Assembly: GCA_017592665.1 (NCBI GenBank)
Contig: JAGFNW010000010.1
Location: 1 to 64,000, forward strand
From: Streptosporangiaceae bacterium NEAU-GS5
Lineage (GTDB): Bacteria > Actinomycetota > Actinomycetes > Streptosporangiales > Streptosporangiaceae
Reading direction: 5' to 3'
DNA length: 64,000 nt
The translations under genes and the position numbers were made by a program. The notes under the pieces are model-generated. The model saw only the letters and a list, made by a program, of their open reading frames with translations. It did not search any database and was not told the origin of the DNA. Every line of letters starts with the position of its first letter. Position 1 is the stretch's first letter. Shown here one piece after another: positions 8,207 to 41,204 of this stretch.

Positions 8207-8220
8207 CCGAAAGTTTCGGA
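8207..8220. promoter_or_regulatory. CGAAAGTTTCG operator-like palindrome upstream of the CE15 gene
   Basis: The core CGAAAGTTTCG at 8208-8218 is a perfect inverted repeat around a central base, about 138 bp before the CE15 start. The same GAAA-S-TTTC core occurs before the GH6 (18016-18024) and PL11 (41194-41202) genes. Confidence 0.6.
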
Positions 8221-8253
8221 AACTAAGTGAATTTCAGCGCATCCGCACACCGA

Positions 8254-8946
8254 TCACCGCGCCGGGTCGGATCGGGTGAATTCCACGCAGCCGCCGATCG
8301 CCGCGAGGGCCATGCCCGCGATGACGAGCCAGAAGCCGGCGCCGGCGAACCCGATGACGTTGAGCCCTCGGCCGAGTTCCCCGAGTTCGTTGATGGCCAT
8401 CTGAAGCCGGATCAGCCCGAAAAGGTAGACGCCCACCACCGCGACCGCGAGAACGATGATGGTGACGGATGCCTTGCGGCGCGCCGCCGGCGCCACGCTC
8501 GCGCCCCGCCAGAGCCAGGCGGCCAGGCTTCCCGCGATCACCGATGACAGCGGGATCAGCCAGAGGAGGAGCAGCGCGCCATTGTCCCGCCCGGCCTCCG
8601 ACGCGGCGACCGCACCCGTTATCGAGCCGAGGGCGGGCACGGCCGTCAGCGGAAGCGCGACGAATGCGAGAAGGGCGAGACACGAACCGACGAGAGAAAT
8701 CACGGGCGGCCGGCGATCCTCCTGCCAGGCGCCGGCATGGGCGGGCGAATGGCGATTGGCCCAGGGCGTCCCGATCGGCCATGTCGGACCAGAGGCCGCC
8801 GGCGTGGCGGGCGTTCCAGAGACCGTCGGCCCAGGTCGACCGAGCAGTCGCTCTTTCGCCGAGGCGAACTCCTCATTGGTGATCGAGCCTTCGGTGAGCC
8901 GGCGGGTGAGTTCCCGGAGCTGATTCGGCAGGTCTGTGTCGTCCAT
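8254..8946 (-). CDS. SHOCT-domain membrane protein
   Basis: The 230-aa product starts at an ATG preceded by GGGAG. Residues about 6-36 form a SHOCT motif (LRELTRRLTEGSITNEEFASAKERLL cut in its middle by a short turn). A proline-rich linker of about 40 residues follows, then four hydrophobic segments between about 80 and 225. SHOCT modules occur on many actinobacterial membrane proteins as oligomerisation or binding elements. No specific function is recognised. It is a single gene, divergent from the GNAT region. Confidence 0.75.
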   Translation of the reverse strand: MDDTDLPNQLRELTRRLTEGSITNEEFASAKERLLGRPGPTVSGTPATPAASGPTWPIGTPWANRHSPAHAGAWQEDRRPPVISLVGSCLALLAFVALPLTAVPALGSITGAVAASEAGRDNGALLLLWLIPLSSVIAGSLAAWLWRGASVAPAARRKASVTIIVLAVAVVGVYLFGLIRLQMAINELGELGRGLNVIGFAGAGFWLVIAGMALAAIGGCVEFTRSDPAR

Positions 8947-9043
8947 TGGGGGCTCCCGTGAAAATGGCCGTGTTCCTGCGGTGTGTCTCTTACCGAGTTT
9001 GCCCGTTACCCGTTCTACATTTCATTATCGTGGCCATTTTGAG

Positions 9044-9163
9044 ATGATTTCCAATATACGGCGAGTGGATACGGTATGGCACCTTATGTCGCGTTCACAT
9101 TGGATAAAGGATGGTTACTCACCGAAGGAGCTGGCCGAATACAGCGCCGAATACTACGTTTGA
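9044..9163 (+). CDS. Possible 39-aa small protein ahead of the GNAT gene
   Basis: ATG 9044 to TGA 9163 encodes a hydrophilic peptide ending SHWIKDGYSPKELAEYSAEYYV. It lies in a noticeably AT-richer stretch (about 8985-9160) and stops 3 nt before the GNAT start, so translational coupling is possible. No clear ribosome site precedes the ATG and no family is recognised. Confidence 0.25.
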   Translation: MISNIRRVDTVWHLMSRSHWIKDGYSPKELAEYSAEYYV

Positions 9164-9166
9164 TCT

Positions 9167-9565
9167 GTGGCTGACGTGACGATTCGGCATGGGTCCAAGG
9201 ACGACGTCGACGAGATTCTCGCCTTCTGGCGGCTGGCCGCGGAGGGGACCGACCGGCGCGACTCGCCCGAGGCGTACCTCACTCTGGTCGGGCGCGACCC
9301 GCAGGCCGTCCTGGTGGCGGAGATCGACGGCGCCATGGTCGGGACGCTCCTCGCCGGCTGGGACGGCTGGCGCGCCCATCTCTACCGCCTCGCCGTGCAT
9401 CCCGAGCATCGCCGCCGGGGCATCGCGCGGCGCTTCCAGGCGCTGGGCGCCATGCGGTCCGACGCCATGGTCCTCGACGACAACACATCGGCCCATCCCA
9501 CCTGGGCGGACTCGGGTTACAGCCGCCAGCCCGAGTGCAGCCGATGGGTCAAACTACTGAAATGA
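9167..9565 (+). CDS. GNAT-family N-acetyltransferase
   Basis: The 132-aa product begins at GTG (MADVTIRHGSKDDVDEILAFWRLA) and has the acetyl-CoA-binding motif A signature RLAVHPEHRRRGIARRFQALG at about 70-90. Length and strand order fit a minimal GNAT fold that acetylates a small-molecule or protein amine; the acceptor is unknown. No strong ribosome site is visible before the GTG, which could be explained by coupling to the small ORF ending at 9163. The stop overlaps the SDR start in an ATGA junction. Confidence 0.85.
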   Translation: MADVTIRHGSKDDVDEILAFWRLAAEGTDRRDSPEAYLTLVGRDPQAVLVAEIDGAMVGTLLAGWDGWRAHLYRLAVHPEHRRRGIARRFQALGAMRSDAMVLDDNTSAHPTWADSGYSRQPECSRWVKLLK

Positions 9566-10422
9566 CCATGATGTCCGGCAAGACCTGCCTGGTGACCGGG
9601 GCGACCAGCGGCATCGGCCAGGAGACCGCGGCCCGGCTGGCCGGGCTCGACGCCACCGTGATCGTCGTCGCGCGGAACCAGGCGCGCGGCACGGCCGCGT
9701 GCGAGGAGATCCGCCGCCGCGTGCCGGACGCTCAGGTCGAGGCGCTGACGGCCGACCTGTCCGTCATGGCGCAGGTGCGGCGGCTGGCCGAGGAGGTCCA
9801 GGCGCGCCACGAACGGCTCGACGTCCTGGTCAACAACGCCGGCGTGATCTCCACGCGCCGCCGGACGACCGCCGACGGGTTCGAGACCACCTTCGCGACC
9901 AACCACTTGTCGCCGTTCCTGCTCACCGGCCTGCTGCGCGGGCTGCTGGAGCGCAGCGCGCCCGCGCGCGTCGTGACGGTCTCGTCCGCCGCCCACAAGT
10001 CGGTCCGCGCCATCCCCTGGGACGACCTCCCAACCGGCGCGGGCGCCGCGAGCGGCCAGACCTATCCCCTGTCGAAGCTGCTGAACATACTGTTCACCAC
10101 CGAGCTGGCCAGGCGCCTCGAAGGCGCCGGCGTCACCGCCAACTGCCTGCACCCCGGGTTCATCCGCACGGCGCTCGGCCGTGACGTCACCGGCCTGATG
10201 GGCGCGCTCGTACGGGTCGCGCTGCGCTTCCAGCCCGGGCCGGAAACCGGCGCCGAGACCTCGGTCTACCTGGCGAGTTCGCCGGATGTCGCCGAGGTCA
10301 CCGGCGGCTACTTCGTCAAGTGCCGGCTCACCGAGCCGAGCGCCCTGGCCAGGGACGCCCAGGCCGCCGCCCGGCTGTGGACGCTCAGCCAGGAATGCGC
10401 GGGACTCGCCCCGGCGCCGTGA
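9562..10422 (+). CDS. Short-chain dehydrogenase/reductase (SDR)
   Basis: The 286-aa product starts at 9562 in an ATGA overlap with the GNAT stop; ATGs at 9568 and 9571 are alternatives. It has the Rossmann TGATSGIG motif near the N-terminus, NNAG in LVNNAGVISTRRR, and a YPLSK active site (Tyr and Lys) preceded by a serine-rich VSSAAHKS. The architecture resembles retinol-dehydrogenase/WWOX-like SDRs, which use NADP(H). The substrate is unknown. Its last 38 bp overlap the convergent AAA ATPase gene. Confidence 0.88.
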   Translation: MTMMSGKTCLVTGATSGIGQETAARLAGLDATVIVVARNQARGTAACEEIRRRVPDAQVEALTADLSVMAQVRRLAEEVQARHERLDVLVNNAGVISTRRRTTADGFETTFATNHLSPFLLTGLLRGLLERSAPARVVTVSSAAHKSVRAIPWDDLPTGAGAASGQTYPLSKLLNILFTTELARRLEGAGVTANCLHPGFIRTALGRDVTGLMGALVRVALRFQPGPETGAETSVYLASSPDVAEVTGGYFVKCRLTEPSALARDAQAAARLWTLSQECAGLAPAP

Positions 10423-11836
10423 CGCCGACGGCCGAGCCGAGCAGGCTCCGCGTCAGGGCTTCCCGCTCGCTGGTCATCTCTTCCAGCGCCTCGCTCAGGT
10501 GTGCGGCGGTCAGCGCGGTCACGGTCTCCCGCTCGCGGAGCGCCAGCAGCACGGACCGGCGCAGCAACTCCTTGAAGAAGGACGCCGTCGCGCCCGCCGA
10601 GCGCTCCACCACCTCGCCGAGGTCGCCGTCCAGCCGCAGATCGCCCGCGTACAGGCGGAGCAGCGCGGCCCTACCCGCCGCGTCGGGGCGCGGGATCTCG
10701 ACGGCCAGGTCGACCCGGCCGGGCCGGTCGGCCAGCGCGCGCTCGAGCGCGTCCGCCCGGTTGGTGGTGAGCACGAACGTCACGTCGGCGTCGGCGCCGA
10801 TGCCGTCCATCGCGTCGAGCAGCGTGAACAGCAGCGGACCGCCGCCGTCGGCCGACATCGAGCGATCCATGGCCACCAGGTCGACGTCCTCGACCACCAC
10901 GATGGCCGGCTGCAGCCGCCGCGCCAGCGCCGCCGCCTGCTCCACGAAGCGGAGGGCCGCGCCCGTCATGATGATGACGGTCGACCCTTCGGTCCGGCTC
11001 ATCAGATAGCGGACCGTGTGGGTCTTGCCCGTGCCGGGCGGCCCGTGCAGCAGCAGGCCGCGCTTGAGATGCTGGCCGTGGGCGCGCAGCCGCGAGGCGT
11101 ACGTGCCGACGTCGACGACGTGCCGCTCGATCGTGTCCAGCACGCCGTCGGGCAGCACGACCTGCCCCGACTCCATGCGCGGCCGCGGCAGGAACGACAC
11201 CAGCTGGTTGCCCATGTGCTCGCTCGCGCCGAAGGACAGGATCTGCCCCCGGAGCACGTCGAGCTCGCGCTTGAGCGCGTCGATCTCCGCACGCGCCCGC
11301 GACCCGGCGGCCCGGTCGGCCGCCAGGATGTCGAGCTGCACGTGCTGGCGTCCGAAGCGATCGGCGGGGCCGCGCACGCCGACCAGAATCGGCGCGCCGT
11401 CCGGCGTCCTGGTAAGGATCATCCCGTGCCCGACGACCTCCATGGACGCGTCCGAGCTGATCGCCGCCGTCGTCCAGTCGGCCGCGCCCAGCTCGAAGTC
11501 GCGGTAGGCGCGGTCGGCCATGGCGAGGATGTTGGCGAGTTCCTCGTGCTCGCGCTGGTGCCCTGTGATGCCGAACCACTGCGCGTCCGGAGTGTGCAGG
11601 GCGAGGTAGGCGTCCACGCCGCGCTGCAGGCTGGCCGCGTCCCACGGGGGATAGTTCTCGCTCACGGAGACCAGCTCGCGCGGCGAGCAGCCGACGTGGG
11701 CGGTGATCCGCAGCACCAGCTCCGGCGTCGGCCGCGACGCCTGCAGCTGGACGTGACCCTGCTCCAGGATCTGCGCCAGCGCCCGGGCGAGCGCGGCCGA
11801 GTCGGTCAGTCGGAGGGAATCATCCACGCGCCCCAC
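10385..11836 (-). CDS. AAA-family ATPase
   Basis: The 483-aa protein has an N-terminal unclassified region (1-200), a short coiled segment (about 180-205), and one AAA+ module with Walker A GPPGTGKT (265-272), Walker B AIVVVEDVD (about 305-313), a sensor-1 TNRAD and the arginine-finger-like DRPGRVD. A small helical lid follows. This is the layout of CDC48/FtsH-like single-ring ATPases found in actinomycetes, usually annotated only as ATP-binding proteins. No protease motif is present. It is a single gene whose 3' end overlaps the SDR gene. Confidence 0.85.
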   Translation of the reverse strand: MGRVDDSLRLTDSAALARALAQILEQGHVQLQASRPTPELVLRITAHVGCSPRELVSVSENYPPWDAASLQRGVDAYLALHTPDAQWFGITGHQREHEELANILAMADRAYRDFELGAADWTTAAISSDASMEVVGHGMILTRTPDGAPILVGVRGPADRFGRQHVQLDILAADRAAGSRARAEIDALKRELDVLRGQILSFGASEHMGNQLVSFLPRPRMESGQVVLPDGVLDTIERHVVDVGTYASRLRAHGQHLKRGLLLHGPPGTGKTHTVRYLMSRTEGSTVIIMTGAALRFVEQAAALARRLQPAIVVVEDVDLVAMDRSMSADGGGPLLFTLLDAMDGIGADADVTFVLTTNRADALERALADRPGRVDLAVEIPRPDAAGRAALLRLYAGDLRLDGDLGEVVERSAGATASFFKELLRRSVLLALRERETVTALTAAHLSEALEEMTSEREALTRSLLGSAVGVTAPGRVPRIPG

Positions 11837-12029
11837 ACTGGCAGACCCGCACGCGCAACGCGCACGCGAAGATCATGGAACAGGGTGGAACGCCCACTAA
11901 TTGAGTGACACGGAACAGTGACACGGGACCTCTGACGGGATCGCGGTCCGGCTGTACGCGGAACCAGCCGGGCCGGGGGTCGTCCGAGGGTTCGGCGGCC
12001 GGTCATGGTCGCGGTCATAGAGTGACGGA

Positions 12030-12773
12030 ATGCGGATCTCCGTCCTCGGCGGCTGCGGCGCGTGGCCGGCCGCCGGGCAAGCCTGCAGCGGCTATCTCGT
12101 CGAGCATGAGGGCTTCCGCCTGCTGATGGATCCGGGATACGCCACGCTCCCCCGGCTGCTTGAGCACATCGACGCGCCCGAGGTCGACGCGGTGCTGGTC
12201 AGTCACGGCCACGCTGATCACTGCGCCGACCTGCATCCTCTCCTGCGTGCCCGGGTGCTCCGCGACGACCCGGCGGCCGTGCTCCCCGCGTACGCGCCGG
12301 ACGGCGCGCTCGGCAAGGTCCTCGCGCTCGACCGGCCCGAGATGCTCCAGGGCGCCTGCGACGTGCGGACCATCACGGAGGGCCGGCGGTTCGAGGTCGG
12401 GCCGTTCCAGGTCGACACGTGGCTGCTCCCCCACTCGCTGCCCAACCTCGGCCTGCGCCTGACGGCCGGCGGACGCGTCCTGTCCTACACGGGCGACACC
12501 GGGCCGAGCCCCCACCTGCTCGACCTGGCCCGCGACGCCGACGTCTTCCTGGCCGAGGCCACGTTCGCCGAACGCGTGCCGGACGACTCGGCCCGCACCC
12601 TGTCCAGCGCCGCGCAGGCCGGCCGGAACGCGGCCGAGGCCGGCGCCGGCCGCCTCGTGCTCACCCACCTGCAGCCGGGCACCGATCCCGGCGAGTGCCG
12701 CGCGGCGGCCGGGCGCTCCTACACGGGCCCGATCGAGGTGGCCCGCGGCGGGCTCCGCATCGACGTGGACTGA
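12030..12773 (+). CDS. MBL-fold metallo-hydrolase (RNase Z/ElaC-like fold)
   Basis: The 247-aa protein opens with MRISVLGGCGAWP and carries the metal-binding motif H59-G-H61-A-D63-H64. Further ligands are likely in LLPHSLPNLG (His), YTGDTGPS (Asp) and LVLTHLQPG (His). It matches the actinobacterial metallo-beta-lactamase family related to RNase Z and phosphodiesterases (Rv1339-like). A cyclic-nucleotide or phosphodiester substrate is plausible but unproven. The ATG sits directly before the first beta strand. Confidence 0.85.
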   Translation: MRISVLGGCGAWPAAGQACSGYLVEHEGFRLLMDPGYATLPRLLEHIDAPEVDAVLVSHGHADHCADLHPLLRARVLRDDPAAVLPAYAPDGALGKVLALDRPEMLQGACDVRTITEGRRFEVGPFQVDTWLLPHSLPNLGLRLTAGGRVLSYTGDTGPSPHLLDLARDADVFLAEATFAERVPDDSARTLSSAAQAGRNAAEAGAGRLVLTHLQPGTDPGECRAAAGRSYTGPIEVARGGLRIDVD

Positions 12774-12822
12774 TCTTCTTGGACTGATCTTCTTCGACTG
12801 ATCCTCTTGAGCTGATCCTCGA
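12767..12822 (+). repeat. Four tandem 14-bp units after the metallo-hydrolase gene
   Basis: Units GGACTGATCTTCTT (12767-12780 and 12781-12794), CGACTGATCCTCTT (12795-12808) and GAGCTGATCCTCGA (12809-12822). The first unit overlaps the stop codon. The copies decay in one direction. Confidence 0.8.
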
Positions 12823-12867
12823 ACGACGGCCGCGACCGCGGCGTATCTCCTTCGAGAGGAGAGCGCC

Positions 12868-13920
12868 ATGGCCCTACGCGATATCCCCGCTTCGCCGCGC
12901 AGATGGGCGGTGGGGGTGCTGCTGGCCGGGCTGATCGCGCTGCTGGCCGCCTATTGGATGGGCGGCGACCGCGGCGTCGCGCAGGCCATGGGCCTGCCGT
13001 CGCCGGGGCTGGTGACGACGTGGGGGCTGCCGGTCGTACGGCTGCTGCACGACATGTGCGCCATCGGCACCACCGGGACCTTGCTGGCCGGGCTGCTGCT
13101 GGATCGGCCCGTCGGACGCGCCGCGCAGCGGTGGGCGCTGGGATGGGCCGCCACCGCCGCGGTCACCGTCCTGCTCACGCTCTCCGACTTCCTCGGCGAG
13201 CCGGTGCCGGACGCGCTGCGCTCGGGGGCGCTGCCCACGTTCCTGCTGCACATCCCGCAGGGGCAGGCCTTCCTCGCCGTCTACGGCCTGGCCCTCGCCA
13301 TCGTCCTCGGCACGTTCATCCCGGCCGTGGCCGTACGGCAGGGCCTGCTGCTGGCCCTCGCCATCGCGGCGACGCTGCCGCCCGCCTACGCCGGGCACTC
13401 GGCCTCGGCCGCCGACCACCAGCTGGCGATCGCCAGCCTCATGGTCCACGTCGCCGGGGTGACACTGTGGGTCGGCGGCGTCTTCGGGCTGCTCGTGTTC
13501 GTCCGCGCGGCCGGCGAGCCGGAGCGGGCCGTGCGGCGGTTCAGCACGCTGGCGCTGTGCTGCTACGCCGCCGTCGGCCTGTCGGGGGCCCTCAACGCGT
13601 GGATCCGGCTCGGCGCGCCCGACCAGCTGTGGCGCTCGACCTACGGCCTGCTGGTGCTGGCCAAGGTGGCCGCCCTCGTGGCGCTGGCGTGGTTCGGCAA
13701 CAGGCACCGCCGGTCGACGATCGCCGCGCTCGGGCGCACGCGCGCCCCGTTCCTCCGGCTGGCGGCCGCGGAGCTCGCGGTGATGGCGGCGGCGCTCGGC
13801 CTCGCGGTGGCGCTGTCGCGCACGCCTCCGCCGTCAGGCGCGCATGCCGCGGGTCAGGTGTGCGCCCCTGTCTTTTCATGCACGAAGTGGCGTGCGGAGC
13901 CGGCCGCGGAGACGATCTGA
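12868..13920 (+). CDS. CopD-like multi-pass membrane protein
   Basis: The 350-aa protein starts at an ATG after CGAGAGGAGAG. It has about eight or nine hydrophobic helices, and the second half (about 170-310) matches the CopD domain with HSASAADHQLAIASLMVHV and conserved histidines suited to copper binding. Actinobacterial CopD proteins take part in copper transfer across the membrane, often with CopC or CtaG modules; neither is adjacent here. The last 22 residues (after LSRTPPPSG) are polar and Cys-containing and lie antisense to a small ORF. Confidence 0.82.
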   Translation: MALRDIPASPRRWAVGVLLAGLIALLAAYWMGGDRGVAQAMGLPSPGLVTTWGLPVVRLLHDMCAIGTTGTLLAGLLLDRPVGRAAQRWALGWAATAAVTVLLTLSDFLGEPVPDALRSGALPTFLLHIPQGQAFLAVYGLALAIVLGTFIPAVAVRQGLLLALAIAATLPPAYAGHSASAADHQLAIASLMVHVAGVTLWVGGVFGLLVFVRAAGEPERAVRRFSTLALCCYAAVGLSGALNAWIRLGAPDQLWRSTYGLLVLAKVAALVALAWFGNRHRRSTIAALGRTRAPFLRLAAAELAVMAAALGLAVALSRTPPPSGAHAAGQVCAPVFSCTKWRAEPAAETI

Positions 13921-14066
13921 CCGAGCAGGGCGTCGAGGGCCGCGTGATCCATCCAGTCGCGTTCGGCGATCACCGCGGCCTGGTCGTTCAGCTGCGCGGT
14001 GACCGAGGTGATGTCGGTTAGGGCGCCGAGGATCGCCGCCTTCTCGTCGGCTGTGAGATCGCACAT
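13854..14066 (-). CDS. Small hypothetical protein, 70 aa
   Basis: The ATG at 14066 opens a predicted all-helical protein beginning MCDLTADEKAAILGALTDI and ending HFVHEKTGAHT. Its composition (Asp/Glu-rich, Ala/Leu heptads) looks coding. The longer reading to 14294 would cross the glyA promoter and riboswitch on the other strand and is rejected. A GGAG lies about 15 nt upstream, rather far. No family is recognised. Its 3' end overlaps CopD by 67 bp. Confidence 0.5.
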   Translation of the reverse strand: MCDLTADEKAAILGALTDITSVTAQLNDQAAVIAERDWMDHAALDALLGQIVSAAGSARHFVHEKTGAHT

Positions 14067-14079
14067 GTACGGACCGTAC
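14067..14079. promoter_or_regulatory. GTACGG-A-CCGTAC palindrome
   Basis: Perfect 6-bp arms around one base, abutting the start codon of the 70-aa minus-strand ORF. It is a possible operator for that ORF or for the divergent glyA promoter. Confidence 0.35.
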
Positions 14080-14097
14080 GTCTCCAACGCCGATCCG

Positions 14098-14137
14098 TAA
14101 ACATCCGCGAACTTCAGCGAACTTCCGTGAACATCGC
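14098..14137 (+). repeat. Four head-to-tail 10-bp repeats upstream of the glyA promoter
   Basis: Consecutive units TAAACATCCG, CGAACTTCAG, CGAACTTCCG and TGAACATCGC (consensus YGAACWTCCG). They run from 14098 to 14137 and end 8 bp before the putative -35. A 10-bp period puts each unit on the same DNA face, as expected for cooperative regulator binding. Confidence 0.6.
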
Positions 14138-14145
14138 CATGTGCG

Positions 14146-14174
14146 TTGCGGAGCGCGACGGCCGCCCGTAGGCT
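14146..14174 (+). promoter_or_regulatory. glyA promoter
   Basis: TTGCGG (14146-14151) and TAGGCT (14169-14174) are separated by 17 bp. The predicted start near 14181 coincides with the 5' edge of the ZTP riboswitch fold, which supports the call. Confidence 0.6.
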
Positions 14175-14177
14175 CCG

Positions 14178-14270: not shown

Positions 14271-14314
14271 TCCCGCTTCACCGGAACGATTCACCGGAAT
14301 CGAAGGAGACGCCT

Positions 14315-15751: not shown

Positions 15752-15905
15752 GCCCCCGGCGCCCACCCACAACTGAACGCCTGCCGACAGCGGACGGGAC
15801 CGGGAGGTGGGGGGTGACACGCACATCATGGGTTTGCGGTGCGTTCGCAGCGCAGCGTGACAGGACCAAGGCGGTGATCGACAGCAGCCGGACCCACACG
15901 CAACC

Positions 15906-16774: not shown

Positions 16775-17974
16775 TCAGTCGTCGATGGCCTGGTAGACGG
16801 AGGTCCAGAAGTCGCGGAAGACGGCGGGCTGGGCGGGGGAGGTCATTTGGCGCTGGGTGAGCAGGATGCCGATCAGTTCCTCGGCCGGGTCGATGTAGAC
16901 GCAGACGCCCGAGCCGCCGGACCAGCCGAAGCGGCCGGGGGTCGAGTCGAGGCCGGTGCGGCGCGTGATGACCTGGACGCCGAAGCCCCAGCCGCTGTTG
17001 CCGTCGAAGAACACCTCATTTCCGGCCTTCTGCCGCTCGGTGAGCTGATCGGTGGTCATGGCCTCGACCGAGGGGCGCGACAGGACGCGGGCGCCGATGT
17101 GGCGGCCCTTGCCGAGCAGCATGGCGCAGAAGGCCAGCAGGTCGTCGGCGGTGGACACGAGGCCGCCGCCGATGGAGGGGAAGACGGGCGGATGGTCCCA
17201 CCGGCTCCGGCTCGGGTGGTCGTCGAGGACGAGGCCGGCCTCAGGATCAGGCCGGTAGACGGCGGGGAGGCGGCCGATCTTGCCGGGAGGCACGTGGAAG
17301 TCCGTGTCGGCCATGCCGAGCGGCTCGAACAGCCGCTCCCGCAGCAGGTCGCCGAGGGGTCGCCCGGTGGCGCGCGACAGCAGCACGCCGAGGACCTGGG
17401 AGCCGGTGTGATACATCCACCGCTCGCCCGGCTGATAAGCCAGGGGCAGATCGCCGAGGCGCTTCATCCACTCCTCGGGCGTGATCGGGATCTCGTGCGG
17501 CCCGGGCGACAGCCCAGCCTCGTCCATGGCCCGCTGGATGGGACAGGCACCCGGCTCGGCCACCACGACGCCGAGACCCATCCGGAACGTCAGCAGGTCG
17601 CGCATGGTGATGGACCGGACGGCTGGGACCGTGTCGCCGAGCGGCGCGTCGACGCGGGTCAGCACACGCCGGTCGGCCAACTCGGGCAGCAGGTCGTCGA
17701 CCGGGTCGTCGAGCCGCAGCCGGCACTCCTCGATGAGGGTCATCGCGGCGGCGGCACCGATCATCTTGCTCACCGAGGCGATCCGGAAGATGGTGTCGCG
17801 CCGCATGGGCACGCCGCCGCCGTCCGCCTCGGTGGTGCCGAGCACCTCGACGTGGACCTCGCCGCGCCGCGCCACGAGCGCCACCAATCCCGGCACCTCA
17901 CCACGCTCCACGTGCCCGCCGAGGACCGTGCGCAGCCGGCCGAGCCGTACGGCCGAGAAACCCGAGACTCGCAT
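16775..17974 (-). CDS. Serine beta-lactamase-like hydrolase (class C / esterase type)
   Basis: The 399-aa protein starts at ATG 17974 (MRVSGFSAVRLGRL); longer in-frame readings run into the GH6 promoter region. Catalytic S67-V-S-K70 lies in IASVSKMIGA, with WMYHTGSQVLG near 180 in the Tyr-motif position and WSGGSGVCVYIDP as the C-terminal box. There is no signal peptide, so it is probably a cytoplasmic EstB-like esterase or D-aminopeptidase-type enzyme and not a secreted beta-lactamase. It is divergent from the GH6 gene. Confidence 0.85.
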   Translation of the reverse strand: MRVSGFSAVRLGRLRTVLGGHVERGEVPGLVALVARRGEVHVEVLGTTEADGGGVPMRRDTIFRIASVSKMIGAAAAMTLIEECRLRLDDPVDDLLPELADRRVLTRVDAPLGDTVPAVRSITMRDLLTFRMGLGVVVAEPGACPIQRAMDEAGLSPGPHEIPITPEEWMKRLGDLPLAYQPGERWMYHTGSQVLGVLLSRATGRPLGDLLRERLFEPLGMADTDFHVPPGKIGRLPAVYRPDPEAGLVLDDHPSRSRWDHPPVFPSIGGGLVSTADDLLAFCAMLLGKGRHIGARVLSRPSVEAMTTDQLTERQKAGNEVFFDGNSGWGFGVQVITRRTGLDSTPGRFGWSGGSGVCVYIDPAEELIGILLTQRQMTSPAQPAVFRDFWTSVYQAIDD

Positions 17975-18014: not shown

Positions 18015-18026
18015 TGAAACTTTCGA
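18015..18026. promoter_or_regulatory. GAAACTTTC operator-like repeat upstream of the GH6 gene
   Basis: TGAAACTTTCGA carries the GAAA-C-TTTC inverted core (18016-18024), about 140 bp before the GH6 start and about 40 bp from the divergent beta-lactamase-like gene. It matches the boxes before the CE15 and PL11 genes. Confidence 0.6.
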
Positions 18027-18162: not shown

Positions 18163-19956
18163 ATGGAGCTCTGGGGTCGAAGAACCCTCGCCGGGATCGC
18201 GGGCACCGCGCTCGCGGCGGCCGCGCTGGTGACCGCGCACACAGGAGCGGCGCAGGCGGCGATCGCCTGCGACGTGACCTACACGGCCAACACCTGGACC
18301 GAGAGCCCCGGCCGCGGCGGGTTCGGGGCGAACATCACCATCAAGAACCTGGGCAGCCCACTCACCGGGTGGACGCTGCGCTTCTCGTTCACCGCCGGCC
18401 AGACCTTGTCCAACGGGTGGCAGGCCGTGTGGAGCCAGTCGGGCGCCCAGGTGACTGCTGTGAACGAGTCCTACAACGGCAACGTGGCCACCGGCGGGAC
18501 GGTCGGCATCGGCTTCAACGGGCGGTGGACGGGCGGCAATCCCAACCCCGCGTCCTTCAGCGTCAACGGCGTGACCTGCGTGGGAGCCTCCCCATCGCCT
18601 TCCCCCAGCCCCTCGCCCTCTCCAAGCCCGTCTCCAAGCCCCTCCCCCTCCCCCAGCGGGTCGACCGACCTCCATGTCGCCAACCCCTTCGTCGGAGCGC
18701 GGGGCTACATCAACCGCGACTGGGCCGACAAGGTCTCGGCCGCCGGCACGGCGCAGGGCGGCGACCTCGGCGAGCAGATGAGGCGCGCGGCGTCCTTCCC
18801 GACCGCGGTGTGGCTGGACAGCCTCGCCTCGATCGCGAGCGTGCGCGGCGGCAAGAGCCTGCGCCAGCACATGGACGCGGCGCTGGTCCAGTCGCTGTCG
18901 CAGAACAACATGGACCCCGTCGTGGTCACCGTCGTGCTCAGCGACCTGCCGGACAAGGACTGCGCCGGCGACGTCTACCAGGGCGACCTCTTCGTCACCA
19001 GCGGCGGCCTCAACGCGTACAGGACGCAGTTCGTCGATCCGATCGCGGCCATCTTGGGCGACCCCAAGTACGCCAGTCTGCGGATCGTGACGGTCGTCGA
19101 GCCCAACACCCTCATGGAGCTGGTCTTCGGCGGCTCGAACCCGCGCTGCGTCGAGGCGAACCAGAGCGGCGTCTACGTCCAGGGCATCCAATACGCGCTG
19201 AACAAGCTGCACGCCATCCCCAACGTCTACCCCTACCTCGACATCGCCCGCTCGATCAGCGGCGGCTACGACACGAACGCCGTGCCGTTCGTGACCCTGG
19301 TCGGCAATGTGGTCGGCGGCACGGCCGCCGGGAAGAACAGCGTGGACGGATTCGTCTCCAACGTGTCCGAATACGTGCCGGTCGAGGAGATCTTCCTGCC
19401 CAACCCCAACCTGCTCGTTGGGGGGACGCCGCTGTGGCAGTCGCGGTTCTTCGACTTCAACAAGACCTTCGACGAGCTCGACTACGTGACGAACATGCGC
19501 GCCGCCCTCATCGCGAACGGCTTCCCGTCGTCGGTCGGCATGCTGATCGACACGTCGCGGAACGGCTGGGGCGGCCCATCGCGGCCGATCATCGTGAGCT
19601 CGTCCAACGACCTCAACACGTACGTCGACCAGTCGCGGCTGGACAAGCGGCTGAACCGCGGCAACTGGTGCAACCAGGAGAACGCGGGCATCGGGGCCCG
19701 GCCGCAGGCGGCGCCCTCGCCGGGCATCGACGCGTACGCGTGGGTGAAGCCGCCGGGCGAGTCCGACGGCGTCAGCAATGCGGCCGGTGACAGGGACGAC
19801 CCGAACATGCACTTCAACCATTGGTGCGACCCTGACTTCACTCCGGCCACCGGCGCCCTGCGGCACACGGGCGCCGCCGCGGGCGCGCCGCCGTACGGGC
19901 AGTTCTTCACGACCTACTTCCGAACGCTCGTTCAGAACGCGTCTCCGGCCCTGTGA
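18163..19956 (+). CDS. Secreted CBM2-GH6 cellulase (exo-beta-1,4-glucanase type)
   Basis: The ATG at 18163 follows CAGGAG at 6-nt spacing; the product is 597 aa. The signal peptide ends near QAA33. CBM2 spans about 35-136 with its terminal cysteines (C36 and the one in GVTCVG). A pure Ser-Pro linker follows, then GH6 (about 168-597). The general acid is probably D266 in LPDKDC. Also present are IDTSRNGWGG, RGNWCNQENAGIG and WVKPPGESDG. The usual V-E-P-D motif reads VVEPN here (N315). The exo-type loops suggest a cellobiohydrolase releasing cellobiose. It has an upstream GAAA-C-TTTC box. Confidence 0.92.
   Translation: MELWGRRTLAGIAGTALAAAALVTAHTGAAQAAIACDVTYTANTWTESPGRGGFGANITIKNLGSPLTGWTLRFSFTAGQTLSNGWQAVWSQSGAQVTAVNESYNGNVATGGTVGIGFNGRWTGGNPNPASFSVNGVTCVGASPSPSPSPSPSPSPSPSPSPSPSGSTDLHVANPFVGARGYINRDWADKVSAAGTAQGGDLGEQMRRAASFPTAVWLDSLASIASVRGGKSLRQHMDAALVQSLSQNNMDPVVVTVVLSDLPDKDCAGDVYQGDLFVTSGGLNAYRTQFVDPIAAILGDPKYASLRIVTVVEPNTLMELVFGGSNPRCVEANQSGVYVQGIQYALNKLHAIPNVYPYLDIARSISGGYDTNAVPFVTLVGNVVGGTAAGKNSVDGFVSNVSEYVPVEEIFLPNPNLLVGGTPLWQSRFFDFNKTFDELDYVTNMRAALIANGFPSSVGMLIDTSRNGWGGPSRPIIVSSSNDLNTYVDQSRLDKRLNRGNWCNQENAGIGARPQAAPSPGIDAYAWVKPPGESDGVSNAAGDRDDPNMHFNHWCDPDFTPATGALRHTGAAAGAPPYGQFFTTYFRTLVQNASPAL
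18588..18660 (+). repeat. Ser-Pro codon repeat encoding the CBM2-GH6 linker
   Basis: About 24 codons alternate TCx/AGC with CCx, encoding an uninterrupted Pro-Ser linker. It is low-complexity DNA with little synonymous uniformity, typical of actinomycete cellulases. Confidence 0.85.
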
Positions 19957-19974
19957 ATTCTCGGTGACGCTGAA

Positions 19975-25852: not shown

Positions 25853-26011
25853 CGTCGCGACGGCGGAACCGGGTCTGTGATGAGACGGGCGGGCCGTGTA
25901 AAGTCCGACCACCGGGAAAACGAGAAGGTTTCCGCTGTGGATGGGAAACAGGCGCCCGATCTCCCGAGTTGGTTGATACTGACAGCCTAGAGGCACGCCG
26001 AAGGAGAGACA

Positions 26012-31730: not shown

Positions 31731-31751
31731 GGGTTTTCCACGATACCGACG

Positions 31752-36194: not shown

Positions 36195-36216
36195 GATCCC
36201 ACGATACCCACCCGTG

Positions 36217-36897
36217 TCACCCGGAACCTGGGCGGATGAGCCCGGTCTCGTACGCGATGACGACCAGTTGCGCCCGGTCGTGCGCGCCGAGCTTGGTCAT
36301 CGCCCGGTTGATGTGGGTCTTGACGGTGGCCGGGCTGACGACGAGGCGGGCGGCCATCTCGTCGTTGGACAGGCCGCTCCCTACGAGGGCGAGGATCTCC
36401 CGCTCGCGGTCGGTCAGCGCCGCGAGGCGTGCCGGGCTCGGCGTGGCTGCACGCACCGGGTCGGCCAGAAAGCGCGCGATCAGCCCGCGGGTGGCGGCGG
36501 GCGACAGCAGCGCCTCTCCGGCGGCCACGGTCCGTATGGCGCGCAGCAGGTCGGGCGTGTCGGCGTTCTTGCCGATGAAGCCGCTGGCCCCGGCGCGCAG
36601 CGCGGCGAAGACGTACTCGTCGATCTCGAACGTCGTCAAGATGAGCACGCGCACCCCGGCGAGGTCGTCGTCGGCCGTGATGAGCCGGGTGGCGGCCAGG
36701 CCGTCGAGATCGGGCATCCGGATGTCCATCAGCACGACATCGGCGCGGACCTCCCGGGCCAGCCGCACGGCGTCGCGGCCGGTGGCGGCCTCGCCGACCA
36801 CCTCCAGGTCGGGCTCGTCCTCGACGAACACCCGGAACCCGGCGCGCACCAGCGCCTGATCGTCGGCCAGGAGGATGCGGATCACAGAGGCAGCCAT
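36217..36897 (-). CDS. NarL/FixJ response regulator
   Basis: 226 aa with a receiver domain (DDQALVRAGF acidic pocket, phospho-Asp in VVLMDIRMPDLDG, Lys in GFIGKNADT) and a LuxR HTH (LTDREREILALVGSGLSN, VSPATVKTHINRAMTKLG). It overlaps the kinase upstream by 16 bp, so the two are co-translated. It probably controls the divergent ABC exporter. Confidence 0.92.
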   Translation of the reverse strand: MAASVIRILLADDQALVRAGFRVFVEDEPDLEVVGEAATGRDAVRLAREVRADVVLMDIRMPDLDGLAATRLITADDDLAGVRVLILTTFEIDEYVFAALRAGASGFIGKNADTPDLLRAIRTVAAGEALLSPAATRGLIARFLADPVRAATPSPARLAALTDREREILALVGSGLSNDEMAARLVVSPATVKTHINRAMTKLGAHDRAQLVVIAYETGLIRPGSG

Positions 36898-38069
36898 GCG
36901 CTGACCCGGTAGCCGCCGCCCTCGCGGGGTCCCGCCTTCATCTGGCCACCGGCGGCCGCGACCCGTTCGCGCATGCCGGCCAGGCCGTGTCCACGGCCGT
37001 GTCCGCGGTCGTGTCCGCGGTCGTGTCCGCGGTCGTGTCCGCGGCCTGCCGGGATCGGCGCCGCGCCGCCGTCGTCCTCGACGAGGATCCGCAGCCGGGC
37101 GGGCTCGTAGGTGAGCCGCACCGTGGCGCGGGCGGCCGCCGCGTGTTTGCCGACGTTGGTGAGCGACTCCTGGATCACCCGATAGGTGGCGAGGTCCGTC
37201 GCGGGCGGGACGGGGCGCGGCTCGCCCTCGATCTCGTGAACTATCCGCAGGCCCGACCCGCTGAAGGACGAGATCAGGCGGTCGAGCGCGGACAGACCTG
37301 GCCCGGGAGCGGTCGGGGCGTCCCCCTCGCGCAACACGCCGACGGTCGACTTCAGCTCGGACAGGGCCGCCTGGCTGGCCTGCCGTACGTATCCGAGCGA
37401 CACGCGCGCTTCGTCGAGACGGTCCGTCAGCCGCCGCTCGGCCACCCGCACCTGAATATTGATCATCGCGAGCTGGTGGCCGAGCACGTCGTGCAGCTCA
37501 CGGGCTATCCGCAGGCGGTCCTCGGACACCCGGCGGGCGGTCTCCAGCTCGCGGTCCCGCTCGGCGCGCCGGGCCCGCTCCTCCACGGCCGCCACATAGT
37601 CGCGGCGGTTGCGGGACGCGGTGCCGGCGGCGATGGCCAGCGCGCCGAAGGCCGCCAGGGTGAGCGCTCCCCCGGCAAGCGGGCTCGCCGGGCGGGCCGC
37701 CAGGTGGAAGCCGGTCACCAGGACCACCGTGAGCATGCCGAACGCCATCGATCGGCGCCAGCCGCCCAGATCGGCGACGGTGTAAAGGGCGATCAGCGGG
37801 GCGATCAGCACCACCTCGGGCGTCCCCGGCCGGGCCAGCGCCGCCTCAGCAGCCGCCACGCCGACCACCAGCACGGCCAGCGGGTGACGGCGGCGAGCGG
37901 CCAGCGCCCCGCTCGCGACGCCCACAGCGGGGAGAACGGCCGGGGGCGCGCCGGACGTGTGGAGGACCGCGAACGCGCTCACGGCGAACGCGGCCAGCGC
38001 GAGCGCGAGGTCGACGTGCACCGGGTGACCGGCCGCCGCCTCGGCCCACGCGCGCATCCGGCTCCGCAT
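36882..38069 (-). CDS. NarX/DesK-like sensor histidine kinase with a GHDR repeat in its ATP lid
   Basis: 395 aa from ATG 38069; upstream alternatives exist near 38105 and none has a good ribosome site. Four to five membrane helices (about 20-160) precede a HisKA_3 helix (RIARELHDVLGHQLAMINIQ) and HATPase_c. Between the G1 box (EDDGG) and G2 box (GLAGMRERV), the ATP lid is expanded by repeated R-G-H-D units encoded by five 12-bp repeats. The kinase pairs with the overlapping NarL regulator, and the pair faces a LolD/FtsX ABC transporter, a layout typical of antibiotic or envelope-stress detoxification modules. Confidence 0.9.
   Translation of the reverse strand: MRSRMRAWAEAAAGHPVHVDLALALAAFAVSAFAVLHTSGAPPAVLPAVGVASGALAARRRHPLAVLVVGVAAAEAALARPGTPEVVLIAPLIALYTVADLGGWRRSMAFGMLTVVLVTGFHLAARPASPLAGGALTLAAFGALAIAAGTASRNRRDYVAAVEERARRAERDRELETARRVSEDRLRIARELHDVLGHQLAMINIQVRVAERRLTDRLDEARVSLGYVRQASQAALSELKSTVGVLREGDAPTAPGPGLSALDRLISSFSGSGLRIVHEIEGEPRPVPPATDLATYRVIQESLTNVGKHAAAARATVRLTYEPARLRILVEDDGGAAPIPAGRGHDRGHDRGHDRGHGRGHGLAGMRERVAAAGGQMKAGPREGGGYRVSAWLPL
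36986..37045 (+). repeat. Five 12-bp tandem repeats within the kinase gene
   Basis: Units CGTGTCCACGGC, three identical CGTGTCCGCGGT and CGTGTCCGCGGC. On the coding (minus) strand they encode GHGR/GHDR units. Three identical copies suggest recent expansion and possible length variation. Confidence 0.9.
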
Positions 38070-38193
38070 GGCCCAAGCGTAGGCATGTGCCGAGGCGAAG
38101 GGCATCCACCCGGCGCGGTACCGCGGACGCGGTACACGAAGCCCGCTCTGGGCTGACGACCAGATGCTCCGGAGTGCGTGACCGTGTGACGTC

Positions 38194-38853
38194 ATGACAG
38201 CCATTCATGTGGACCAGGTGTCCAAAATGTACGGACGGTTCACCGCCCTCGACGGGGTGAGCCTGAAAATCGCGGAGGGCGAGTTCGCCGCGGTCGTCGG
38301 CAAGTCGGGCAGCGGCAAGACCACCCTGCTCAACCTGCTGGCCGGCATCGACCGGCCGACCGGCGGCCGGGTCGAGGTCGCGGGGACGGACCTCGGCGCG
38401 CTTGCCGAATCCGAGCTGGCCCGCTGGCGCGGCCGTACCGTGGGGCTGGTCTTCCAGTTCTTCCAGCTGCTGCCCACGCTCACGGTCGCCGAGAACGTGG
38501 CGCTGCCGATGGAGTTCGCCGGGCGGATTCCGGCACGCGAGCGCCGCTCACGCGCGATCGAACTGCTGGCCAAAGTCGGCATCGAGGACCAGGCGGGCAA
38601 GCTGCCCGGCACCCTTTCCGGCGGCCAGCAGCAGCGCGCCGCTGTCGCGCGGGCGCTGGCCAACGACCCTCCTGTGCTGCTGGCCGACGAACCCACGGGC
38701 AATCTCGACTCGGTCTCCGGCCGGGCAGTGCTGGATCTGTTCACCCGGCTCAACGGCGAGGGCCGGACCATCGTCATCGTCACGCACGAGCGCGAGGTCC
38801 GCGACGTCGCCACCCGCCGGATCGAGATGGCCGACGGGCAGGTGCGCGGATGA
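38194..38853 (+). CDS. LolD/MacB-type ABC transporter ATPase
   Basis: 219 aa with Walker A GKSGSGKT (about 37-44), Q-loop QFFQLLPTLTV, signature LSGGQQQRAAVARAL, Walker B VLLADEPTGNLD and switch His in VTHEREV. The length and the FQFFQ element match MacB/LolD-type ATPases that power mechanotransmission transporters. It overlaps the FtsX-like permease as ATGA and is divergent from the two-component system. Confidence 0.93.
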   Translation: MTAIHVDQVSKMYGRFTALDGVSLKIAEGEFAAVVGKSGSGKTTLLNLLAGIDRPTGGRVEVAGTDLGALAESELARWRGRTVGLVFQFFQLLPTLTVAENVALPMEFAGRIPARERRSRAIELLAKVGIEDQAGKLPGTLSGGQQQRAAVARALANDPPVLLADEPTGNLDSVSGRAVLDLFTRLNGEGRTIVIVTHEREVRDVATRRIEMADGQVRG

Positions 38854-41195
38854 CCCGGCTGCTGCTGGTCAAGCTGGCGCGGGACGTCTCGGCCGCGAAG
38901 GGCCGGATCGCGCTCATGGTGATCGTGATCGGGGTCGGCCTGGTCGCGTTCAGCACGATCCTTTACACGCGGACCATCGTCGACCGGGAGATCGGCCGCA
39001 GCTACCGTGCCACGGAACCGGCGTCCGCGACGCTGCTGCTGCGGGACCCTGTCGATCAGGCTGTCCTGAACGGCGTGCGAGCCCTGCCCGGAGTCCGCGA
39101 CACCGCGCTCCGCGCCCAGTTCGACGCCCGATGGCGCGGCGCGGACGGGCGCTGGTCGGCCGATCCGCTGCAGACGTTCGTCTACGCTCCCGGCGACCCG
39201 CTCCGCGTGGCGCGCTTCCGGGTGGAACAGGGGACATGGCCGCCGCCTCCCGGCGGGATCCTCATCGAACGCGTGGCGATGCGGGTGATGGGCGTGCACG
39301 TGGGCGACCCGCTCACGATCCGGGAGCCCGGCGGTGCGCCGCGCACGCTGCGGATCACCGGCGTCGTCCACGACCCGAGCCTGGCCCCGGCCGACAACGA
39401 GGCGAAAGGCTACGGCTACGTGACGGGCCAGGCGTTCGATCAGGTGAAGCTCCTCGTGGACGGCGAGGACCCCGCGATGATCACGCGGGTGGCCCGTGAC
39501 GTCGGCGCGTGGCTGCGCGCGAGGGGTCTGACGGTGGAGGAGATCCAGGTGCCGCCGCCGTTCCAGCATCCGCATCAGGGGCAGATGAACGCCATCACGG
39601 CCGTTGTGCTGGTCTTCGCCGCCCTGGCGTTCGTGCTCAGCTCGTTTCTGGTGGCCACCCTGCTGGGCGGGCTGCTGACCCGGCACATCCCGCACATCGG
39701 CATGCTGAAGGCCGTGGGGGCGAGCTCCCGCCGGCTGTTCCAGCCCTACCTGCTGATGATCTTCCTGATCGGGGCCGTCGCGACGCTCCTGGCGTTCGCG
39801 CCTGGTGTGGTGGCCGCGCGCCTGTTCTCGGGGCGGATCCTCGATCGCATGCTCAACATGGACCTCACCGACGTGTCGGTGCCCGCCTGGGAGAATGTGG
39901 CGGTGGTGGCCGCCGGGGTGGCGATACCTGTCCTGCTGGCGCTGGCGCCCATCACCCGTGCGGCAAGGACGACCGTGCGACAGGCACTCGACCATCACGG
40001 CGGGGCCGACCGGGCGACCGCGTTCGGAAAGGGACGGGGCGGGATCGTCCTGATGGCGCTGCGGAACCTCACGCGGCGCCGCACCCGGCTGGCCCTGTCG
40101 GCCGGGCTGCTCGCGGTCTCCGGGACGCTCTTCGTGGCCGCCATGAACGTCTACGCATCCTTCCAAGGCGCGATCGCCGACGCGGGCGACCAGCACTCGG
40201 TCGATGTGGAGGTGCGCACGGCCGGCCCGGTGACCGCGGCTGCCGTACGTGGCGTGCCCGGGGTCGCGGGCGTCGAGGCGTGGCGTGCGGAGTCGGCCGC
40301 TCCCGCCGAACCCGGCCAGATCAGCGTCACGGCCACCTATCCCGATCAAGGGCACGGCGGCTTCCGGCTGGTCGCGGTGCCGCCGGACACCGCCATGCTG
40401 CGAGTGCCGCTCACACAGGGGCGCTGGCTGCGGCCGGGCGACGTGGACGCGGCGGTCGTGAACCAGAGCCGGCAGATCGGGGGGCGCCCGGTGCGCGTCG
40501 GCGACACGCTGGCCCTGTCGATCGGGGGACGGCTGACGTCCTGGCACGTGATCGGCGTCGAACAGGAGGTGTTCCCGCAGGGTTCGGCCTACGTGACCCC
40601 CGAAGGACTGGCCAGGGCCACCGGACGGCCGTACGAGAGCGACCTGCTCATGGTCACGACGGTCCGGCACGATCCGGGCGCGCGAGCGGCCGCGGCCGAC
40701 GCCGTGGAGACGGCGCTCTCCCAGGCCGGCGTCCAGGTCACGTCGTCCACCCCGCGCACGCGCTACGACCAGGCGGTCGACGGCCACATGTACGCCATGC
40801 TGGCGGTGCTGCTGGCGATCGCCGGCGCGCTCGGGCTGGTCGGCGTGATCGGCCTGGCCGGCGCCATGAGCTCCGCCGTGATCGAGCGGACCAGGGAGTT
40901 CGGGATACTGCACGCGATCGGAGCCCCGGCCGGCGCGGTACGCCGCCTGGTGGTCGCCGAGGGAGTCTTCACCGCGCTGCTGGGCTGCCTGCTCGCCGTC
41001 GTCCCGGCCCTGGCCCTCACGGCCGCGCTGCGCTCGGGCCTGAGCCGGATGTTCGTCCCGCTGCCGTTCCGGATGTCGGTCGCGGCCATGGTGACCTGGT
41101 TCGCGGTCGTCGTGGTGGGAGCGGCTTTGGCCGTGCTGGGCCCGGCCGTACGGGCCTCGCGGCTCACCGTCAGGGACGCTCTGGCGCGGGATTGA
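38850..41195 (+). CDS. FtsX/MacB-like ABC permease
   Basis: 781 aa, with two copies of the FtsX/MacB_PCD unit. The first has an N-terminal helix (AALMVIVIGVGLVAF), a large extracytoplasmic domain and three helices (ITAVVLVFAALAFVL, MLKAVGASSRRLFQPY coupling loop). The second repeats this, with FGILHAIGAPAGAVRRLVV as the coupling loop. It probably extracts a lipophilic substrate or antibiotic from the membrane. The stop codon lies inside the GAAA-G-TTTC box of the PL11 gene. Confidence 0.9.
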   Translation: MTRLLLVKLARDVSAAKGRIALMVIVIGVGLVAFSTILYTRTIVDREIGRSYRATEPASATLLLRDPVDQAVLNGVRALPGVRDTALRAQFDARWRGADGRWSADPLQTFVYAPGDPLRVARFRVEQGTWPPPPGGILIERVAMRVMGVHVGDPLTIREPGGAPRTLRITGVVHDPSLAPADNEAKGYGYVTGQAFDQVKLLVDGEDPAMITRVARDVGAWLRARGLTVEEIQVPPPFQHPHQGQMNAITAVVLVFAALAFVLSSFLVATLLGGLLTRHIPHIGMLKAVGASSRRLFQPYLLMIFLIGAVATLLAFAPGVVAARLFSGRILDRMLNMDLTDVSVPAWENVAVVAAGVAIPVLLALAPITRAARTTVRQALDHHGGADRATAFGKGRGGIVLMALRNLTRRRTRLALSAGLLAVSGTLFVAAMNVYASFQGAIADAGDQHSVDVEVRTAGPVTAAAVRGVPGVAGVEAWRAESAAPAEPGQISVTATYPDQGHGGFRLVAVPPDTAMLRVPLTQGRWLRPGDVDAAVVNQSRQIGGRPVRVGDTLALSIGGRLTSWHVIGVEQEVFPQGSAYVTPEGLARATGRPYESDLLMVTTVRHDPGARAAAADAVETALSQAGVQVTSSTPRTRYDQAVDGHMYAMLAVLLAIAGALGLVGVIGLAGAMSSAVIERTREFGILHAIGAPAGAVRRLVVAEGVFTALLGCLLAVVPALALTAALRSGLSRMFVPLPFRMSVAAMVTWFAVVVVGAALAVLGPAVRASRLTVRDALARD

Positions 41196-41204
41196 AAGTT
41201 TCGG
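41192..41204. promoter_or_regulatory. GAAAGTTTC operator-like repeat upstream of the PL11 gene
   Basis: The core GAAAGTTTC (41194-41202) overlaps the stop codon of the ABC permease and lies 78 bp before the PL11 start. It is the third instance of the box shared by the CBM2 enzymes. Confidence 0.6.

Follow-up and report, generated by a model that had tools for sequence, protein, structure and literature searches.

The window, that is, the whole 64,000-nucleotide stretch of DNA analysed, contains exactly three copies of the palindrome GAAASTTTC (8209-8217, 18016-18024 and 41194-41202), which lie 5' of a CE15 glucuronoyl esterase gene, a GH6 cellulase gene and a PL11 rhamnogalacturonan lyase gene (Table 1). 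All three genes encode a CBM2 domain, and no CBM2 domain was found elsewhere in the window (E 0.001). Because the genes were called with our own script, start positions are approximate. The centre of the first box is 227 bp from the called CE15 start and ~143 bp from the alternative GTG. The second box is 143 bp from the GH6 start; its distance to the called start of the divergent beta-lactamase-family gene, whose membership of a common regulon is doubtful, is 136 bp. These two boxes are intergenic; the third shares bases with the stop codon of an upstream ABC permease gene (38850-41195).

Table 1. Boxes and genes of the window, and the candidate regulator gene
Feature	Position	Strand	Basis and remarks
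CE15 glucuronoyl esterase-fn3-CBM2	5893-7986	-	Pfam GCE_fung (E 2e-74), fn3, CBM_2; start may be 8070
TTGAAATGTTTCAA, box with 2-base centre	8143-8156		sequence; between operator and CE15 gene
Operator CGAAAGTTTCG	8208-8218		exact match; 5' of CE15-CBM2 gene
Beta-lactamase-family (serine hydrolase) gene	16775-17884	-	Pfam PF00144; divergent from GH6
Operator TGAAACTTTCG	18015-18025		exact match; between divergent GH6 and beta-lactamase-family genes
CBM2-GH6 cellulase	18163-19956	+	Pfam CBM_2, Glyco_hydro_6
Operator TGAAAGTTTCG	41193-41203		exact match; 82 bp 5' of PL11
CBM2-PL11 rhamnogalacturonan lyase	41280-43499	+	Pfam CBM_2, RGI_lyase, RGL11_C (E 8e-236)
GH28-like gene	45701-48349	-	pectate-lyase-like + CBM35/6
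LacI protein, 331 aa	G000:C12:65054-66049 (L049:17055-18050)	-	Pfam LacI, Peripla_BP_3

Shuffling of the window gave a mean of 0.07 GAAASTTTC copies, and three or more were reached in 0/100 shuffles, bearing out the original prediction of a box before these three genes. The prediction had further stated that the box is missing at a GH43 and a GH28-like gene. Indeed, the GH28-like gene has no GAAASTTTC box, but no GH43 gene was found among the 14 window genes scanned with Pfam, the sole Pfam match of the GH43 candidate at 2753-4744 being DUF7910. Allowing one mismatch while requiring Y..R flanks added no box anywhere in the window; when the flank rule was dropped, one extra one-mismatch core, GAAGGTTTC at 25924, appeared. 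The CelR operator TGGGAGCGCTCCCA was absent from the window at up to two mismatches, and control of the window sites by CelR was therefore rejected.

In the genome, the GAAASTTTC core occurs 67 times against 5 copies of the reversed pattern, and the flanked form YGAAASTTTCR occurs at 34 sites against 1 for its reversed control. According to a tally made by eye, which counts an aldose epimerase, 25 of the 34 flanked sites are at wall-enzyme, sugar-uptake, aldose-epimerase or LacI genes; the other nine have no clear wall-related target, and at least two of these are intragenic. The Pfam scan covered 60 of the 85 site-flanking genes. Overall, the targets comprise GH10, GH11, GH30, GH62, CE15, LPMO and PL11 lyase genes and uptake operons. 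Among the nine GH10 genes, four have an exact core, one is inside a LacI-linked ABC operon, one has a one-mismatch box and three have neither; two GH11 genes (those found at sites) and one GH30 gene also carry the core, in agreement with the predicted link of the box to actinomycete xylanase genes.

The box is also kept at orthologous promoters. In the CE15 comparison (29 loci, from among the 44 other genomes that gave a match), GAAANTTTC was found at 19/29 promoters and YGAAASTTTCR at 13/29, the reversed control being found at 0/29. At PL11-type CBM2 loci of related genomes, the exact box was present at 3/12 and a box with at most one mismatch at 10/12, although the PL11 labels were assigned from match coverage and open-frame length, and 4 of the 12 are uncertain. 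At the 19 CBM2 loci of relatives compared, with one locus (L254) left out as cut by a contig end, each of three permuted palindromes scored 0/19. Membership of the rhamnogalacturonan lyase in the regulon, as originally proposed, is supported because 10 of the 12 PL11-type loci carry the box when up to one mismatch is allowed.

A LacI-type regulator had been anticipated, and a candidate was found in the 331-aa LacI protein. Its gene is arranged head to head with an operon encoding a solute-binding protein (SBP), two permeases (the second identified by eye), GH5, GH10 and GH43, the last a beta-xylosidase, and the promoter common to both contains two boxes. YGAAASTTTCR was found within 500 bp upstream at 71 of 80 orthologue loci (reversed control, 0/80), at a density of 2.36/kb upstream of the LacI orthologues versus 0.037/kb elsewhere in the same loci; seven of the nine loci without the flanked box have GAAANTTTC. 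All 80 orthologues share the recognition-helix motif xPTVSK. Three of the 80 loci are Streptomyces records, two with the flanked box. Among 36 same-family genomes, 3-34 sites were counted in each of the 12 that have a LacI orthologue of at least 75% identity; the other 24 have 0-2 sites, save two with 6 and 23 (p 2e-6). The genome with 23 sites (G013) has a best LacI orthologue of at most 59% identity; conversely, one genome (G034) with an 85% orthologue has only 3 sites, against 4 for its reversed control. Both the 80 loci and the 36 genomes are mutually related, so these counts overstate independence.

Within the genome, where 36 of 77 LacI-like candidates were scored, 5 of the 8 members found of this LacI subfamily adjoin a site, including all four xPTVSK members; for one of the five (C12:145383), the site is 3' of its end, before a CE1-CBM2 gene and outside its own promoter. 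G057, a distant genome from the same class, has five sites, four of which are at a GH30 xylanase gene (above the NCBIfam cut-off), a xylanase-like gene behind a LacI gene (below that cut-off), an SBP-permease operon that ends next to a LacI gene, and an ABC permease-permease-SBP operon, the transport genes of both operons being identified by eye. Sequence comparison shows the box to be enriched, conserved, placed before a defined set of targets and associated with the LacI subfamily, and the 331-aa protein is the likeliest master regulator of the box-bearing genes.

The core operator is already known in outline from Catenulispora and from Streptomyces BxlR. The available portion of PMC3377646 gives a predicted cellulase site SRWGRAASTTTCR in Catenulispora acidiphila and TGAAANTTTCA in Actinospica robiniae, reports the C. 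acidiphila-type site 5' of cellulases, xylanases and arabinofuranosidases as distinct from CelR, and names no regulator for it. These sites have the same core GAAA(G/C)TTTC as the window boxes: the GRAASTTTC core of SRWGRAASTTTCR is present at all three window sites, while its SRW flank is missing at all three (both strands, by eye). The extended site has 22 copies in C. acidiphila, compared with the 67 core copies here. In Streptomyces SirexAA-E, the excerpted text of PMC12772271 places the BxlR motif CGAANNTTTCG before two xylanase genes and bxlR, describes a BxlR homologue pulled down on the xylanase and bxlR promoters, and cites the BxlR of S. thermoviolaceus. In the window, CGAANNTTTCG fits exactly only at 8208 (1/3), the sites at 18015 and 41193 having T for the first C. 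As in the BxlR system, the candidate is a LacI-family protein (HTH and sugar-binding domain) encoded beside a xylobiose-type ABC operon, with two sites in its own promoter, a boxed ABC oligosaccharide uptake operon with a beta-xylosidase, and xylanases as targets. The set here is wider, with GH6, CE15, LPMO, PL11 and GH62. CelR/CebR is of the same protein family and general logic, but its operator differs from the box. Among the literature matches listed for motif and regulator, only PMC3377646 and PMC12772271, and PMC3048496 for the ROK operator, are directly relevant; for this operator question the accessible part of PMC4898821 concerns CebR only, and PMC10766802 makes no mention of BxlR, GAAA, Catenulispora or Thermobifida. 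The listed matches to bare 9-mers are mostly primers.

The original prediction that the operator marks exactly the CBM2 genes and follows the binding module, as an attachment regulon with any catalytic domain, stands within the window (3/3) but fails in the genome. The exact box is at 10 of 40 CBM2 genes (0.13 expected), a strong statistical association, and 26/40 promoters carry it if one mismatch is allowed. This relaxation is post hoc, prompted by near-matches, and was checked against three permuted palindromes, which scored 0/40 each in flanked form. The 30 genes without an exact box have a one-mismatch flanked box at 16/30, versus 9/479 background promoters; six of these nine are in an intergenic region that also borders a CBM2 gene. 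Dropping the flank rule reduces the contrast but does not abolish it (18/30 versus 25/479; permuted 0, 1 and 1 of 30). However, 14/40 CBM2 genes have no flanked box even at one mismatch, 24 of the 34 YGAAASTTTCR sites do not directly precede a CBM2 gene, and the core occurs before non-CBM2 genes, including three GH10, two GH11, GH30, GH62, GH9-CBM3 and LacI genes and ABC operons. Because many wall and xylan genes without CBM2 carry the core, the idea that the operator tracks the binding module and not the substrate is not supported; CBM2 is a module that is simply common on plant-wall enzymes in this genome. A CBM2-exclusive operator was rejected, as most boxes are away from CBM2 genes and most CBM2 genes lack an exact box, and a CBM2 rule in general, already largely refuted, is very unlikely. 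Another module, CBM13, gave 50 domain matches in the comparison, and some box-bearing non-CBM2 genes carry it. That the boxes are chance occurrences, or promoter sequence without a dedicated regulator, has a negligible probability: by eye the half-site TTGAAA is similar to a -35 hexamer, but the shuffles, the lack of enrichment of reversed or flanked permuted palindromes and the conservation at orthologous promoters refute it.

Two other readings concern the protein that binds. A CsnR-type ROK repressor could bind every GAAASTTTC site, since the csnN106 promoter oligonucleotide in the available text of PMC3048496 contains GTTAGGAAACTTTCCTAAC, which holds the same 9-base core; the site next to a ROK gene at C41:87147 has exactly this sequence. 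Unlike the window boxes, that operator has TTAG arms, and armed sites of this genome are mainly found at chitin and GlcNAc-type genes. Only 10 of the 67 core sites have five or more of the eight TTAG-arm bases, seven of the ten being at chitin-type, solute-binding or ROK genes, whereas the window sites have 3, 1 and 0; no ROK gene was found among the scanned neighbours of wall-enzyme sites. ROK/CsnR control of the window sites was rejected for their missing arms, and binding of all sites by such a repressor is highly improbable. Alternatively, the sites could be shared or divided among several LacI paralogues, for instance with the xPTVSK type on S-centred boxes and the MATVSK type on TGAAYGTTTCA at cellulase promoters with a CelR box. 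A CelR-like box (up to two mismatches) is present at 8 of the 40 CBM2 genes, exact at six, and in all eight a plant-wall box, in many cases of the variant form TGAAYGTTTCA, is located 81-134 bp farther out than the gene-proximal CelR box. By counts read by hand from listings, exact or near boxes are weakly tied to the CelR box (8/8 versus 18/32, p 0.02), and TGAAYGTTTCA is at 6/8 of these promoters versus 1/32 others; the MATVSK gene at C54:55778 has CGAAACTTTCG and TGAATGTTTCA upstream. Against such a split, no box accompanies the second MATVSK gene (C42), and relatives have TGAAYGTTTCA at PL11-type loci as well, at which a CelR box was looked for and not found; across the 19 CBM2 loci of relatives a CelR-like box was seen at one only. 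A division among paralogues is possible but rather unlikely.

We therefore favour, with a probability of about 0.8, the reading that the boxes are operators, with the consensus YGAAA-S-TTTCR, of a plant-wall, mainly xylan, regulon under a BxlR-type LacI repressor, consistent with the shared operator first proposed. Without substrate, a repressor dimer on the box would block or dampen transcription, repression being presumed rather than activation. Xylo-oligosaccharides imported via the ABC transporter would probably be the signal, binding the sugar-binding domain and releasing the repressor, so that the secreted wall enzymes would be made together with the uptake system and some LacI relatives. 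Whether this genome combines two flank-separated regulons on one core with two-input core cellulase promoters is an even bet. In such an arrangement, YGAAASTTTCR would serve plant-wall genes and LacI, and TTAGGAAASTTTCCTAA chitin/GlcNAc genes and ROK, in the same cell and on the same 9-base core, with only the flanking bases separating them; the GH48, GH6, GH5, GH9 and GH12 promoters would take both cellobiose and xylan signals.

Beyond the known core, the analysis adds a candidate regulator assignment, a putative second role of the core, marked by its flanks, at chitin/ROK genes, and the distal boxes at the CelR-box CBM2 promoters. It provides a strong candidate regulator for a cellulase/hemicellulase operator for which the available portion of PMC3377646 (2012) names none, and extends the regulon to include glucuronoyl esterase, LPMO and rhamnogalacturonan lyase. 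The system would allow the LacI and ROK reading of one core without cross-talk to be tested, as well as how cellulose and xylan signals combine at cellulase promoters. Most likely, one sugar-sensing repressor family switches on xylan and wall breakdown together.

In the window, the core GAAASTTTC occurs three times against 0.07 expected (at least three in 0 of 100 shuffles), at the coordinates originally predicted. The sites, at 8209-8217, 18016-18024 and 41194-41202, precede CE15-fn3-CBM2, CBM2-GH6 and CBM2-PL11 genes, respectively, and these three genes carry the only CBM2 domains detected in the window. A GH28-like gene and a GH43 gene had been named as lacking the box; the former indeed has none, and a scan of 14 window genes turned up no GH43 gene. 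Between the CE15 gene and its operator lies a further box, TTGAAATGTTTCAA (8143-8156), whose centre has two bases. The boxless GH28-like gene, which also carries CBM35 (45701-48349), is divergent from an HxlR-type regulator gene (48552-49079), which may be its regulator.

Across the 9.96-Mb assembly (127 contigs), we counted 67 copies of the core versus 5 of the reversed pattern, and 34 of the flanked box YGAAASTTTCR versus 1. The surroundings of all 67 core sites and of all 40 CBM2 matches were examined and genes then called; a Pfam scan covered 60 of the 85 genes flanking core sites. By our own tally, 25 of the 34 flanked boxes lie at plant-wall enzyme, sugar-uptake, aldose epimerase or LacI genes, including ten sites before nine CBM2 genes, and nine have no clear target. 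Core targets without CBM2 include three GH10 genes (two with ricin-B/CBM13) and two GH11 genes, each group including one site with a single Y/R flank, together with GH30, GH62-CBM13 and GH9-CBM3 genes, CE1-like esterases and a BNR-repeat protein that we read as GH74-like. Two ABC operons are also marked, SBP-permease-permease-GH5-GH10-GH43 and permease-permease-SBP-GH39-x-GH42.

The original prediction took the operator to follow the binding module. In the interval from -400 to +90 relative to the called start, the exact core is present at 10 of the 40 CBM2 genes (0.13 expected). Of the remaining 30, 16 carry a Y..R-flanked box with one mismatch, versus 9 of 479 background promoters, six of these nine lying in an intergenic region shared with a CBM2 gene. 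Three permuted palindromes each matched 0 of 40 CBM2 promoters (4, 5 and 3 of 479 in the background), and the CBM2 enrichment is therefore real. The rule itself does not hold, as 14 of the 40 CBM2 genes, including GH5, GH9 and CE1-type enzymes and an animal-type haem peroxidase (L096:10987-13191), have neither form of the box; some may lie in operons downstream of a box-marked gene. The operator tracks substrate, not the CBM2 module. A glucose/sorbosone dehydrogenase-fn3-CBM2 protein, a possible electron donor for LPMO, is encoded (L054:8598-10580) beside GH10-CBM2 with a one-mismatch box.

A candidate regulator is encoded by a LacI-family gene (L049:17055-18050, minus strand) head to head with the xylan uptake operon (SBP-permease-permease-GH5-GH10-GH43); two boxes occupy the interval that separates gene and operon. 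Among the best 80 of 218 orthologue loci, taken from named records and including many Streptosporangiaceae such as Nonomuraea and Sphaerisporangium, 71 have the flanked box within 500 bp upstream (reversed control, 0 of 80), at a density of 2.36 per kb upstream versus 0.037 per kb elsewhere in these loci; seven of the other nine have GAAANTTTC, and all 80 proteins share the recognition helix xPTVSK. Of 36 same-family genomes, 12 encode an orthologue at 75% identity or more, and these each have 3-34 sites; of the 24 that do not, 22 have 0-2 sites and two have 6 and 23. In this genome the box adjoins five of the eight LacI-subfamily members found, including all four with xPTVSK, and at one of the five it lies downstream of the gene. 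By analogy with BxlR, the Streptomyces xylan regulator, the protein would bind the box and respond to xylo-oligosaccharides; the same analogy suggests a repressor, a role that site-to-start-codon distances alone cannot separate from that of an activator. A further LacI regulator, this one in the window (at 58729), has the helix VATVSR rather than xPTVSK; close to it are a gene for a solute-binding protein (56105) and, as judged by eye, likely permease genes, and no GAAASTTTC box occurs in this region (54389-59727).

The site is conserved at orthologous genes. Among 29 CE15 orthologue loci examined, out of 44 other genomes with a match, 13 have YGAAASTTTCR, 19 have GAAANTTTC and none has the control; GAAANTTTC is present at all ten loci with the fullest-length alignment (L206-L215). 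At 12 PL11 loci of relatives, the box is exact in three, present with any centre in four and within one mismatch in ten. In G057, the genome of a distant member of the class, four of five sites lie at xylan-type genes, with transport genes identified by eye, and the fifth lies inside an unrelated gene.

Two further patterns emerged post hoc. All eight CBM2 genes with a box like that of CelR, the LacI-family cellulase regulator, also carry the plant-wall box, one of them as an exact copy and seven with a single mismatch; counting the nearest such box, it lies 81-134 bp farther from the gene. TGAAYGTTTCA occurs at six of these eight versus 1 of 32 other CBM2 genes. In addition, five or more of the eight TTAG-arm bases flank the core at 10 of its 67 sites. 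Seven adjoin three GH18, a GH20, a GH3, a solute-binding protein and a ROK regulator gene; the others lie at an MFS gene, at a gene for a small protein that matches no Pfam family, and within a gene. One armed site is identical to CsnR-type operator DNA printed in PMC3048496. These seven armed sites likely represent a chitin/GlcNAc regulon with CsnR-type operators, and thus one core appears to serve two regulons, set apart by flanks.

Two-box promoters and TTAG-armed sites (L, DNA loci cut from genomes; G000, this genome; C, its contigs)
Feature	Coordinates	Remark
GH48	L095:14209	CelR-like box proximal, plant-wall box distal
GH6	L053:9734-12025	CelR-like box proximal, plant-wall box distal
GH5	L106:7255	CelR-like box proximal, plant-wall box distal
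GH5	L114:124-2142	CelR-like box proximal, plant-wall box distal
GH9	L112:5780	CelR-like box proximal, plant-wall box distal
GH12	L098:6063-7748	CelR-like box proximal, plant-wall box distal
CBM2 gene without assigned catalytic domain	L108:7701-9575	CelR-like box proximal, plant-wall box distal
GH6	L079:8274	CelR-like box proximal, plant-wall box distal
TTAG-armed core (TTAGGAAASTTTCCTAA) at GH18/GH20/GH3/solute-binding/ROK genes	G000:C41:87147, C73:244847, C55:2822, C1:232757, C12:56399, C23:86173, C73:143015	loci L060, L084, L074, L046, L049, L051, L083

The operator is of a known kind, because GAAA(G/C)TTTC and TGAAANTTTCA have already been predicted as cellulase sites in C. acidiphila and A. 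robiniae, respectively (PMC3377646), and CGAANNTTTCG is reported to precede Streptomyces xylanases and the BxlR homologue (PMC12772271); PMC3377646 also mentions xylanases and arabinofuranosidases. What the present analysis adds, with no earlier report found in the open-licence literature searched for motif and regulator, is the regulator assignment in this family, a wider target set that includes PL11, the apparent flank-separated double use of one core and the two-box cellulase promoters.
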